64,000 nucleotides of DNA from Acidocella sp. (lineage in GTDB: Bacteria > Pseudomonadota > Alphaproteobacteria > Acetobacterales > Acetobacteraceae), in assembly GCA_027308685.1 (NCBI GenBank), contig DAIDEE010000014.1:1-64000 (forward strand), written 5' to 3'. Every line of letters begins with the position of its first letter. The first letter of the stretch is position 1. Under the pieces are notes generated by a model. The model did no database searches. It was not told the origin of the DNA and saw only the letters and a list, made by a program, of their open reading frames with translations. Positions 57,876 through 63,987 of this stretch are shown here, one piece after another. A program made the translations under genes and the position numbers.

Positions 57876-58244
57876 TCGTTGAGCCAGCGTCATCTGTTCA
57901 GGCCGGTGATATTGAGCTAGCTGGCGTCGGAGAATTTGACCGAATGGTTTTTGCGACGTTGCGTTCAGAAGTGAGAGACGCTGCCAGGAAAGGCGATGGG
58001 CGGTTTTTGGGGTGTGTTAGCGGCGCTGGCAGCCTGGGGATCAATCTAGTATTATAAGTCTTCGACTTATGGTATAGCTTGTGCCATAAATGGTTTATCC
58101 GCCATTTGGCACAACTCAGAGACAATTTCATGCCCGCACGCGATCCGGCAATGGCCGACACGGCCAGCCAGCGGCCACGCGCCTTGTGCCCGCACTGTCT
58201 GCATTATTTTATCAGGCACCGGGGCTGGCGCCGAGTCCGACGGT
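57876..58244 (+). pseudogene. Gap with CheB remnant upstream of the hybrid kinase
   Basis: The first 170 bases show no gene. ATAAGTC-TTC-GACTTAT (58054-58070) is a perfect dyad, and GTGCCATAAATGG pairs imperfectly with CCATTTGGCAC (about 58081-58112). From 58050 the frame of the hybrid kinase is open, with no usual start codon until 58245. Residues read ARTVCIILSGTG then AESDGVPRR, which correspond to two separate parts of a CheB methylesterase domain (ILSGTGSDG... and AEYDGMPRS...) joined with about 25 residues missing. This suggests an ancestral CheB domain lost by deletions. Confidence 0.6.
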
Positions 58245-61200
58245 GTGCCGCGCCGCACGATTGCGTGCGGACAGGTGGATCTGGTGCTGCCGGCGGATGA
58301 AATTGCAAGCTATTTGATGAATTTGAATGGTGACGAAAAGGAGCGCAATCATCGTGTTACGGATATATTGATTAACGTGACAAGTTTTTTCGGCGATCCA
58401 AAAATATTTGATACACTGGCGGCGCTCGTTATTCCTGAGTTGATGGGCAATGTTGAAAAGCCGGTTCGGGTGTGGGTGGCTGGCTGCAGCAGTGGCGAGG
58501 AAACGTACTCGCTGGCCATGCTGTTTCATGAATACAACGAGACTGGCCACACCGGTTTGAAGCTACAGATTTTCGCCTCGGACGTTGATGCCGAGGCGGT
58601 GGCGATTGCGCGCGAGGGATTTTATCCTTTAACGATTGAGGCGCATGTTTCGGCCGCTCGTCTCGCACGATTTTTCAGCAAGGAGGATAACGGTTACCGG
58701 GTATCGTCGGCGCTGCGGAATCATATTATATTTGCGGTACAGGATGTGCTGGCGGACCCGCCGTTTTCAAAACTTGATTTCATCTCCTGCCGGAATTCGA
58801 TGATTTACCTGCGCCCGCAAGCCCAGGCCAAGGTTATCTCCATTTTCAACTTTGCGCTTCGGGAAAGCGGTATATTGCTGCTGGGCAGTGCGGAGGCGGT
58901 GGGAGTAACTGATGGAGGGTTTGCCGTTATATCAAAGCCGGCCAGGTTATATCGCAAAATTGCCGCGGGAGGGATTACTGATTTAACGGTGTCCACCAGC
59001 GAGCTTGACCCACTGCGCACGGTTGCGCGGCTGGGAAGTGAGCGCTTGACGCCGCGCAACATGGATATTGCCGAATTTTGTAAAAGGCTGGTGCTGGAAG
59101 CCTTCGCACCGGCGGCGATATTGATCAATTTGAGACTGGAATGTTTATATTCCTTTGGGCCAACCGCCCAGTATTTGCGGGTGGCGCCTGGTTACCCCAC
59201 GCATGACCTGCTGGCGATGATACGGCCAGCCTTACGGACGCGGGTGAAGGCTGCGATTGGCAATGCGATTAAAAATAACACCCGCGTTGTGGTATCAGGA
59301 GGGCGTGTGACGCGGGCTGGGCATCGCGTGCCGTTCAATATCGATGTGAAGCCGGTGGTGCAGGATGCCGAGGCGCTGCTGCTGATATGTTTTGTGGATC
59401 AGCCTGAGCCCAACCGTCGGCTAAGTACCTCGATGTTGCCGAACGCTCCCGCCTTGGTCAGTGAGTTGGCGCATGAGCTGGCTGCGGTGAAGCGAGACTT
59501 GCAAGCAGCTTTGCAGAGTGTTGAAATGTCCACACAAGAGCCAAAGGCGATCAATGAAGAAGCATTGTCGGTTAATGAGGAATATCAATCGACCAATGAG
59601 GTACTGCTGAATTCCAAGGAGGAACAGCAATCATTGAACGAGGAATTGACAGCGCTCAACAGCCAGTTGCAGGAGACGCTGGAGCGTAGCCGCATGACGT
59701 CGTATGATTTGCAGAACGTGTTGTATAGCACCGATGTGGCGACGTTGTTTTTAGACCCCAATCTGAATATCCGGTTTTTCACGCCGGCCACGCGCTTGCT
59801 GTTTACATTGATCCCCGGCGACGTGGGTCGTCCGCTGGCTGATTTACACTCGCTGGTGGCGGATGACGGGCTGCTGAATGATGCGCGTTGCGTGCTGACA
59901 CATTTTGTACCGATCGAGCGCGAGGTTCTGACGGTGGATGGGACATGGTTCAACCGTCGCATTTTGCCGTACCGTACGCATGATGACAGTGTGGCGGGTG
60001 TGGTGATTACTTTCACGGATATTACCGACCGCAAAAATATCTCGATGAGTTTGCAGGCAGCCCAGCGCAGTGCCGAGCAGGCCAATATTGCAAAATCACG
60101 GTTTCTGGCCGCAGCCAGCCATGATCTTCGCCAGCCCATGCAGACATTGACGTTGTTGAACGCATTGCTGAGCAAGGTTGTTGATGGTAGCCGCGCCAAG
60201 GAGCTTTTGAAAAAGCTCGATGATGCGACGACTGCGATGACCGGTATTTTGAATTCATTGCTTGATATCAACCAGATTGATTCAGGAATTATTCAGCCAG
60301 AGTTTGAGGATTTTGCGATAGGCGCGTTGTTGCATAAATTAGGCGATGAATTTGCCGAGGTTGCAGCGGCGCAGGGTTTGCGGCTGCGGGTGGTGCCGAG
60401 TGGTTTATATATCCGTACCGACCCGAAAATTCTTGAACAAATGATACGGAATTTGCTCTCGAATGCTTTGAAATATACCACCGTGGGCACCGTGCTGATG
60501 GGATGCCGCCGACATGGCACGCGGCTGTTGATCGAGGTTTGGGACACCGGTATCGGGATTCCGCAAGCTGAGCTGGCGGCAATTTTTGATGAGTATCATC
60601 AGGTGGATAATATTGCGCGTGAGCGGAGTTTGGGGCTGGGGCTTGGTCTTTCCATTGTGTTGCGGCTGGGGAATTTGCTCAAGCACAAGGTGAGCGTGCG
60701 CTCGGTGCATAAAAAGGGCTCGGTGTTTGTGATTGAAGCGGCACTGGCGGCAACACCGCTTGCGCTGGCGCCCGGACCAATGCCGCCGGCCTCGGAGATT
60801 GAAGGCGCATTGCCGCACGCCAAGATTGGCAAGATTCTGGTGATTGAGGATGACCCTGATATTCGCCAGCTTCTGGAATTATTTCTCATCGAAGAAGGCC
60901 ATAAGGTGGCGGTGGCCCGTGATGGCGCGGCGGCGGTTAACCTGATTGCCTCGGGCGTGATGGTGCCGGATATGATTTTGGCCGATTATAATTTGCCGAA
61001 TGGATTTAATGGTTTGCAAATTGCGGCCCGGCTGCGCGAGATGTTAGGGCGGATGGTGCCGGTGGTAATTGTGACCGGCGATATTTCGTCGGAGACGATG
61101 CGTACCATTGCGCATGCGGCGTGTATGCAAATGAATAAGCCGATCAAGTTGATGGACCTCAACGAGGTGATCCAGGAGTTGCTTGATGTTGGTGCGCCGG

Positions 61201-61841
61201 TGGTGGCGGTGGCACCGCTCAGCAACGGGCTGACGCACGATGTTCCTGGAAATATCTATGTGGTTGATGACGACCCTAGTATTCGCGATTCCATGCAGGC
61301 GGTGTTTGAAGCCGAGGGGCGCCATGTTGAGGTGTTTGCCGACGGTGAGGCCTTTGTTCAGGCGCACCCGGTGGAGCGCGAGGGCTGCGTGCTGGTGGAT
61401 GGCCGGCTGCCGGGAATGAGCGGGCTGGAGTTGCTGGCGGTGTTGCGGCGCACTTACCCGCAGCTTGGCGCGGTGATGATTACCGGCCAGGGCGATGTGA
61501 AAATGGCGGTTCAGGCAATGCGGGCCGGTGCGTTGGATTTTATCGAAAAGCCGGTGCGGCATGATGAATTATTGGCGTGCGTGAACCGGGCGTTTGAGCA
61601 GCCGAAGGATATTGTGCAGTCAACCGAGCGGCGTGATGATGCAGCGGCCAAAATTGCGCTGCTCACCGCACGGCAGCACCAGATTATGGATATGGTGCTG
61701 AGCGGCCAGGCCAGCAAAAACATCGCCGCGGATTTGGGAATTAGCCAGCGGACCGTGGAAAACCACCGGGCGTCGATCATGCAAAAGACCAATACAATGT
61801 CGATCCCGGAGTTGGTGAGGCTGGCGCTGACGGCGGGGTGA
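58245..61841 (+). CDS. CheR-PAS-histidine kinase-REC-REC-LuxR hybrid sensor/regulator
   Basis: The 1198-aa protein, from GTG 58245 (ATG 58317 is also possible), combines a whole signalling chain. Residues 30-240 are a CheR methyltransferase catalytic domain (AGCSSGEETYS, FASDVDAEAV, SCRNSMIYL); 400-490 is a coiled coil rich in NEE repeats; about 490-590 is a PAS domain; His626 in ASHDLRQP is the phospho-acceptor; NLLSNALKY and GLGLGLSIVLRLG mark the ATPase. Receiver 1 has Asp914, receiver 2 (FixJ-like) has Asp1052, and a LuxR helix-turn-helix ends the protein (about 1140-1195, TARQHQIM, SQRTVENHR). The CheR N-terminal helical domain is missing and CheB is only a remnant. Signal and targets are unknown. 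Confidence 0.88.
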   Translation: MPRRTIACGQVDLVLPADEIASYLMNLNGDEKERNHRVTDILINVTSFFGDPKIFDTLAALVIPELMGNVEKPVRVWVAGCSSGEETYSLAMLFHEYNETGHTGLKLQIFASDVDAEAVAIAREGFYPLTIEAHVSAARLARFFSKEDNGYRVSSALRNHIIFAVQDVLADPPFSKLDFISCRNSMIYLRPQAQAKVISIFNFALRESGILLLGSAEAVGVTDGGFAVISKPARLYRKIAAGGITDLTVSTSELDPLRTVARLGSERLTPRNMDIAEFCKRLVLEAFAPAAILINLRLECLYSFGPTAQYLRVAPGYPTHDLLAMIRPALRTRVKAAIGNAIKNNTRVVVSGGRVTRAGHRVPFNIDVKPVVQDAEALLLICFVDQPEPNRRLSTSMLPNAPALVSELAHELAAVKRDLQAALQSVEMSTQEPKAINEEALSVNEEYQSTNEVLLNSKEEQQSLNEELTALNSQLQETLERSRMTSYDLQNVLYSTDVATLFLDPNLNIRFFTPATRLLFTLIPGDVGRPLADLHSLVADDGLLNDARCVLTHFVPIEREVLTVDGTWFNRRILPYRTHDDSVAGVVITFTDITDRKNISMSLQAAQRSAEQANIAKSRFLAAASHDLRQPMQTLTLLNALLSKVVDGSRAKELLKKLDDATTAMTGILNSLLDINQIDSGIIQPEFEDFAIGALLHKLGDEFAEVAAAQGLRLRVVPSGLYIRTDPKILEQMIRNLLSNALKYTTVGTVLMGCRRHGTRLLIEVWDTGIGIPQAELAAIFDEYHQVDNIARERSLGLGLGLSIVLRLGNLLKHKVSVRSVHKKGSVFVIEAALAATPLALAPGPMPPASEIEGALPHAKIGKILVIEDDPDIRQLLELFLIEEGHKVAVARDGAAAVNLIASGVMVPDMILADYNLPNGFNGLQIAARLREMLGRMVPVVIVTGDISSETMRTIAHAACMQMNKPIKLMDLNEVIQELLDVGAPVVAVAPLSNGLTHDVPGNIYVVDDDPSIRDSMQAVFEAEGRHVEVFADGEAFVQAHPVEREGCVLVDGRLPGMSGLELLAVLRRTYPQLGAVMITGQGDVKMAVQAMRAGALDFIEKPVRHDELLACVNRAFEQPKDIVQSTERRDDAAAKIALLTARQHQIMDMVLSGQASKNIAADLGISQRTVENHRASIMQKTNTMSIPELVRLALTAG

Positions 61842-62052: not shown

Positions 62053-63987
62053 CTACCCTGCCCGGTTGTCCACCAAATCGGTCACCACGCCTGGGTCAGC
62101 CAGGGTGGATGTATCGCCCAGGCTGTCGGTTTCATTGGCGGCGATTTTGCGCAAGATTCGGCGCATGATTTTGCCGGAGCGGGTTTTTGGCAGCCCAGGC
62201 GCCCACTGGATCACGTCCGGTGCCGCGATCGGCCCGATTTCCTTACGGACCCAGGCGACCAACTCCTTGCGGAGTTCTTCGCTCGGGGTCGCGTCGGCGA
62301 TCAGGGTGACGTAGGCGTAAATGCCCTGGCCCTTAATGTCGTGCGGGTAGCCCACCACAGCGGCTTCGGCCACCAAAGTATGCGCCACCAATGCAGATTC
62401 AACTTCCGCCGTGCCCATGCGGTGACCGGATACGTTGATCACGTCATCGACGCGGCCGGTGATCCAGTAATAGCCATCGGTATCGCGGCGCGCACCGTCA
62501 CCTGTGAAATACAGGCCCTTGAAGGTGGAGAAGTAGGTTTGCGCGAAGCGGGCATGGTCGCCGTAGATGGAGCGCATCTGGCCGGGCCAGCTATCGGAGA
62601 TGCAGAGGTTACCTTCTGTGGCGCCGTGCAGTTCCTTGCCCTCGGCATCCACCAGTATGGGCTTCACGCCCGGCAGCGGCAGGGTGGCGGAACCCGGCTT
62701 CTGAGCAATCGCGCCCACCAGCGGGGAGATGAGGATACCGCCGGTTTCGGTCTGCCACCAGGTATCCACAATCGGGCAACGGTTATCGCCCACCACGCGG
62801 TAATACCAGTTCCAGGCTTCCGGGTTGATCGGCTCACCGACCGAACCCAGCACGCGCAGGGATTTGCGCGAGGTTTTTTTCACCGGGCCTTCGCCGTCGC
62901 GCATCAGGGCGCGAATGGCGGTGGGGGCGGTGTAGAAAATATTCACCTGGTGCTTATCAATTACCTGCCAGAAGCGCGAGGTGTCGGGGTAGTTCGGAAT
63001 GCCTTCGAACATGAGGGTCGTCGCGCCGTTGGCGAGCGGGCCGTAAACGATATAGGTGTGGCCGGTGACCCAGCCCACATCCGCCGTACACCAATAAACT
63101 TCGCCGGGGTGATAATCGAACACGTATTGATGGGTAAAGCTGGCCCATACCATGTAGCCGCCGGTGGTGTGCAGCACGCCCTTTGGTTTACCGGTGGAAC
63201 CCGAGGTGTAGAGGATGAACAGCGGGTCCTCGGCGTTCATTTCGGCGGGGGTGTGGATGGGCGAGGCTTTGGCGGTGACATCCTCGTACCACACGTCGCG
63301 GCTGGCCTGCATGTTTACATCGCCGCCGGTGGCTTTCACCACAATCACGTTGCGGACCGACGGGCAGCCTTTCAGCGCGGCGTCGGCATTCACTTTCAGC
63401 GCCACTTTGCGGCCCCCGCGGCGGCCTTCATCAGCGGTGATGAGGGCGACGGAGTTGCAATCCTCGATGCGGTTGGCAAGGCTGTCTGGTGAGAAGCCGC
63501 CGAACACCACGGAGTGGATGGCGCCGATGCGCGCGCAGGCCAGCAAAGCCACAGCAGCTTCGACGATCATCGGCAGGTAAATGGTAACAACATCGCCCTT
63601 TTTAATGCCAAGGTCGGTCATGGCGTTGGCCAGGCGGCAAACCTTTTCATGCAACTGGCGATAGGTGACTTTTTGTGAGGTGTTGGGGTCATCGCCCTCC
63701 CAGATGATCGCCACCTGGTCGCCGCGCTCGGCTAAATGCCGGTCCAGGCAGTTGGCGGATGCGTTCAGCGTGCCGTCCTCGAACCATTTGATCGAGACGT
63801 CGCCGGTGTAGGAGGTGTTTTTGATCTTGGTGGGGGTTTTCATCCACGTAATGCGCTTGCATTCCTCAGCCCAAAACGCGTCCGGCTGGGTCGCGGCCCG
63901 TTCGTACATATCCTTGTACTGGGCAGCGTTTATAAGCGCATGCACAGCAATTTCGGGCTTAATCGCAACGATATCAGCGTCAGACAT
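62053..63987 (-). CDS. acs: Acetyl-CoA synthetase
   Basis: Acs activates acetate to acetyl-CoA with ATP through acetyl-AMP. The 644-aa protein is full length: N-terminal IRDA-like [15 protein letters not shown], the P-loop [27 protein letters not shown], the hinge [28 protein letters not shown] (core GRVDDVINV), and [15 protein letters not shown] with Lys606, the regulatory acetylation site. GAGGAGCC precedes its ATG near the window end. It can recover acetate generated by acetyl phosphate or sulfonate metabolism. Confidence 0.98.

Follow-up and report, generated by a model that had tools for sequence, protein, structure and literature searches.

The window analysed here, a stretch of 64,000 nucleotides from Acidocella sp. 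(contig DAIDEE010000014.1), carries a gene in which a CheR methyltransferase domain, a PAS domain, a histidine kinase, two receivers and a LuxR domain follow one another in a single frame, preceded by scraps of CheB. This raises the question of whether the gene is a signalling protein that has shed its front by reductive evolution, as the original prediction held, or a gene on its way to being lost, a product of faulty assembly or a member of a separate sub-family. The open frame spans 58050-61841 on the forward strand (1,263 codons; preceding in-frame stop TAG at 58047), with GTG 58245 as its earliest usable start. ORF 58245-61841 is real; its 1,198 codons are uninterrupted by any stop or frameshift, and they encode, in this order, a CheR catalytic domain, a coiled coil, PAS_10, HisKA/HATPase, REC, REC and LuxR (Table 1). 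CheR, PAS_10, HisKA, HATPase_c, both Response_reg domains and GerE each scored above the Pfam gathering threshold in a scan of this ORF, so the predicted union of all these parts in one polypeptide stands. The boxes of a hybrid kinase are all present, namely His626, NLLSNALKY (N), DTGIG and GLGLGLS (G), and the receiver Asp/Thr/Lys with D914; the FixJ-like part has the receiver aspartate D1052 and the GerE helix-turn-helix (E 1e-16). The best NCBIfam matches both fall below their curated cut-offs: the HK-REC core is like that of NahK/ErcS-type hybrid kinases (NF041832; 348.2 bits, cut-off 400), from which the window protein differs in its sensor part, and the REC-LuxR portion of ~200 aa is like FixJ response regulators (224.7 bits, cut-off 255) but is fused here to a kinase.

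Table 1. Features of the kinase gene and of its eroded front (window coordinates).
Feature	Position	Strand	Evidence and remarks
Probable native start and N-terminus, MPARDPAMADTASQRPRA...	58130..58300	+	Frame of 56 codons, stopped by TGA 58298-58300 and not in register with the kinase; DNA match to relatives
CheB remnant 1, CARTVCIILSGTGAG	58185..58229	+	Lies in the main frame; the region of the catalytic Asp is cut; tblastn hit, aligned with full-length relatives
CheB remnant 2, AESDGVPRRTIACGQVDLVLPADEIA	58230..58307	+	CheB C-terminal end; 22 codons missing ahead of it; contains GTG 58245
CheR catalytic (SAM-binding) domain	58308..58964	+	Pfam CheR 3e-47; PDB alignment; column counts
Linker and coiled coil with EALSVNEEYQSTNE-type repeats	58965..59696	+	Conserved family-wide
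PAS_10 domain	59697..60038	+	Pfam 1.4e-25; 0/43 conserved positions changed
Histidine kinase core (HisKA His626, HATPase_c), NahK/ErcS-like	60039..60794	+	Pfam; NCBIfam NF041832; residues
Receiver 1 (D914, T944, K965)	60795..61199	+	Pfam Response_reg
FixJ-like receiver 2 (D1052) and LuxR/GerE DNA-binding domain	61245..61841 (including stop codon)	+	Pfam Response_reg, GerE; NCBIfam FixJ

The chain of domains had been considered unusual. On the contrary, the complete arrangement is common among Alphaproteobacteria, and the fusion of sensing to a LuxR output is normal in the CheB-CheR-PAS-HK-REC-REC-LuxR family. Searches of the genus, the family, the class and named genomes yielded 79 relatives, counted by hand and each reaching both ends, that hold this whole chain in one frame of 1,415-1,615 aa, against 1,263 codons in the window (Pfam order CheB, CheR_N, CheR, PAS_10, HK, REC, REC, GerE). 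They are ~42-58% identical to the window protein up to query position 1196-1198, with the PAS_10-HK-REC-REC-LuxR core aligned along its whole length; named examples of such relatives come from Telmatospirillum, Rhizobium, Bosea and Sphingobium and from Methylocystis and Lichenicola plasmids. These hybrid kinases with a fused FixJ-like REC-LuxR, annotated as 'chemotaxis protein CheB' in Methylocystis and Lichenicola, for example, share with the window protein the domain order from CheR to LuxR over nearly the whole length, whereas in the window CheB is destroyed, CheR_N is missing, Arg98 of CheR has become glycine and the native start lies in another frame. A two-gene form also exists: in genome G036, a CheB-CheR-PAS-HK-REC gene matches the window in its sensor and kinase core up to REC1 but has a complete front and leaves REC-LuxR unfused, as a separate gene (L053:8695-9456) that overlaps its end. 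On an Acidiphilium cryptum plasmid, where the front is likewise complete, the match to the window protein stops after REC1.

The window gene thus belongs to a known and widespread family, of which it is a privately truncated form. Its truncation occurs in 0 of the 38 genomes of a genus survey, and no close relative has the same N-terminus; the original prediction had named such a shared N-terminus as something that would count against it. A conserved gene neighbourhood was not found across 15 loci, and the acs, katG and transporter neighbours are not shared. The gene at 62053-63987 on the reverse strand, an acetyl-CoA synthetase gene by its sequence, is convergent to the kinase gene and is absent beside the relatives; as it is not shared by them, there is probably no functional link between the two. 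No experiments on kinases of this type with a fused CheB-CheR module were found in a literature search.

Alignment to the full-length relatives divides the loss of the front into three deletions of ~130, 22 and 61-76 codons, which together remove CheB and CheR-N sequence. The first comprises most of CheB up to CARTVC; the second takes 22 residues within CheB, a count that is identical against every relative; and the third takes 61-76 residues holding CheR_N, so that the CheR catalytic domain directly abuts the end of CheB. What is left of CheB amounts to ~41 residues at 58185-58307 (tblastn E 1e-7), in agreement with the prediction that CheB fragments lie upstream in the same frame. None of the CheB active-site residues remains, and the ORF has no Pfam match to CheB, whereas relatives score ~1e-52. 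The absence of the CheR N-terminal domain was likewise correctly foreseen, as the ORF lacks any match to PF03705, the domain being present in the relatives. With 79 full-length relatives on one side and a private three-part deletion on the other, the view that the window gene is a CheB-CheR-PAS-HK protein deprived of its front is well supported.

The remaining CheR domain has been affected in a different way. Its SAM-binding domain is retained (PF01739, E 3e-47, 161 bits), as is the tyrosine of the CRNxxIY motif, but FFRD reads FFGD, and alignment to Salmonella CheR (PDB) places glycine (residue 50, codon 58392-58394) at the position of Arg98. Arg98 and Tyr235 are reported to be key catalytic residues of CheR, and R98A cells did not swarm (PMC3447774; see also PMC5907407); of this pair, the window protein lacks the arginine. 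All full-length relatives have arginine in this column when correctly aligned; one member of the 59-sequence set, L077, is a misread frame; this accounts for the largest mismatch values and, in all likelihood, for the single 'A' in the Arg98 column. By its residues, the window CheR is very probably inactive. Because CheB and Arg98 are both lost, neither methylesterase nor methyltransferase activity would be expected. The prediction of a fully intact set of downstream catalytic residues is thus accurate for the kinase, the receivers and the LuxR domain (His626, the N and G boxes, D914 and D1052) and wrong for CheR.

The internal deletions had also been said to keep the frame open. This is correct for the second and third deletions but not for the first. 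ATG 58130 is probably the native start: its product, MPARDPAMADTASQRPRA, resembles the MPERDPP... beginning of relatives L048, L051 and L054, and the DNA matches theirs at 17 of 19 positions and over 10 identical bases, with an identical ACGCGATCCG. Read from this ATG, however, the N-terminus is joined to the CheB pieces out of frame, and translation is computed to terminate at TGA 58298-58300; therefore, the kinase would require an internal start. The candidates are GTG 58245 and ATG 58317, the latter just past the TGA, both in frame, and neither has a recognisable Shine-Dalgarno sequence. It is possible that ribosomes re-initiate after translating the short ATG 58130 frame.

At positions conserved in at least 90% of 57 relatives, the window gene is changed at 3/13 in the CheB remnant, 4/79 in CheR, 0/43 in PAS, 3/78 in HK, 3/25 in REC1 and 6/73 in REC2-LuxR; with the exception of the CheB remnant, these counts fall within the family range. 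In a smaller set, 5 of 18 remnant positions were changed in the window as against 18 of 266 in relatives (Fisher p 0.009). Across the two sets, the remnant comparison covers 13-18 positions, part of them at junctions. The terminal branch length of each domain is ordinary for the window gene; as the nearest relatives are ~55% identical, synonymous sites are saturated. A faster decay of CheR than of the kinase core in the window, which the small set seemed to indicate (11/95 against 9/181), disappeared in the larger set (4/79 versus 6/146, p 0.74). Taken from these alignments, the pattern suggests that the core was kept under constraint once the front was released.

A protein in the unrelated genome G075 offers a parallel (L124:2813-6415, G075:C1; 1,201 aa). 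Like the window protein, it has lost CheB, CheR_N and Arg98, here replaced by aspartate, and has kept the kinase core. In the tree it is sister to a full-length congener (L125 of G264; support 1.0), and its front must therefore have been lost independently of that of the window gene. In contrast to the latter, it has a clean in-frame start and no CheB remnant, and its CheR (22/77 conserved positions changed), coil (20/51) and PAS domain (11/43) are strongly eroded, whereas HK (6/78), REC1 (2/25) and REC2-LuxR (6/73) are kept, although the phospho-acceptor aspartate of REC2 has become asparagine. Other members of the family also deviate. The 808-aa frame in G542 (L123:4016-6439) comprises coil-PAS-HK-REC-REC-LuxR only, with neither CheB nor CheR, and a paralogue in G022 (L057:2144-6664) is without CheB but retains CheR_N and the arginine and has extra PAS domains ahead of the kinase. 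The front is broken in G194, G635 and G741 as well, some of these cases perhaps being draft errors. In G194, a one-contig genome, a single frameshift in CheR (L088:395-4593) yields a CheB-CheR-half and a CheR-half-PAS-HK-REC-REC-LuxR frame; in L126 (G741:C424) and L122 (G635:C57), the CheR catalytic domain is wholly or partly deleted, with frameshifts in the front and the kinase part mostly open. An apparent CheR loss in G646 proved to be a contig end, and G697:C143 likewise abuts one. As the query was the back part only, the sample is biased and does not allow breaks in the front and the back to be compared.

We consider it probable, with moderate confidence, that the window gene is a lineage-specific, front-deleted kinase-regulator with a dead CheR, derived from the widespread CheB-CheR-PAS-HK-REC-REC-LuxR protein. 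Its main rival is an early-decay pseudogene, whose front was lost and frameshifted and whose remainder is not usefully translated and is too young to have collected stops. The broken frame of the native start, the poor internal starts, the missing Arg98, the unconserved neighbourhood and the breaks elsewhere in the gene family (G194, G635, G741) are all in keeping with such decay; 1,198 codons free of stops and frameshifts, PAS, HK, REC and LuxR domains conserved as in intact relatives beside a more changed CheB remnant, and a branch length that is not in excess speak against it, and we regard it as a serious though doubtful alternative. The reductive evolution foreseen by the original prediction is no more than plausible: the arguments first given for it fail on Arg98 and on the native start, and better ones are provided by the G075 parallel and by the normal conservation of PAS, HK, REC and LuxR.

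The other two explanations carry much less weight. It is unlikely that the gene is truly full length and lost its front through an error of assembly or sequencing: the source is a 73-contig draft and all close relatives found are full length, but such an error would have to account for three separate junctions, one of just 66 bases, with substituted remnants in between, in a gene internal to the assembled window and away from the contig start, and for an additional and unrelated change at Arg98. A stable, separately evolved sub-family without CheB and CheR_N, common to the relatives, is largely refuted and highly improbable. The architecture of G075 is similar, and G022 has a CheB-less paralogue, albeit one with CheR_N and Arg98; against this, the genus survey found the truncation nowhere else, and the position of G075 as sister to a full-length protein means that the losses were independent.

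On the favoured reading of a front-deleted kinase-regulator, at least three deletions would have taken away almost the whole of CheB together with the N-terminal domain of CheR, with the catalytic arginine of CheR lost as well. Translation would begin at the internal GTG 58245 or ATG 58317, and the remaining protein would most likely be a soluble hybrid kinase under PAS control. His626 is predicted to autophosphorylate and to pass the phosphate to D914 of REC1 and/or to D1052 of the protein's own FixJ-like REC2, and the LuxR domain is predicted to bind DNA.

Taken alone, these results concern a single truncated gene from a single draft genome. Together with G075, they raise the more tentative idea, which we hold as possible rather than probable, that the CheB-CheR front is a dispensable regulatory module, and that loss of CheB and CheR_N brings with it loss of Arg98, leaving a kinase-regulator with a non-catalytic CheR, a state at which at least two lineages, those of the window gene and of G075, would have arrived independently. 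If the front is indeed dispensable, the effect of a methyl-enzyme front on the kinase would become testable. Natural variants that lack the front and keep the kinase and DNA-binding parts hint at a modular role and may serve as ready-made constructs.
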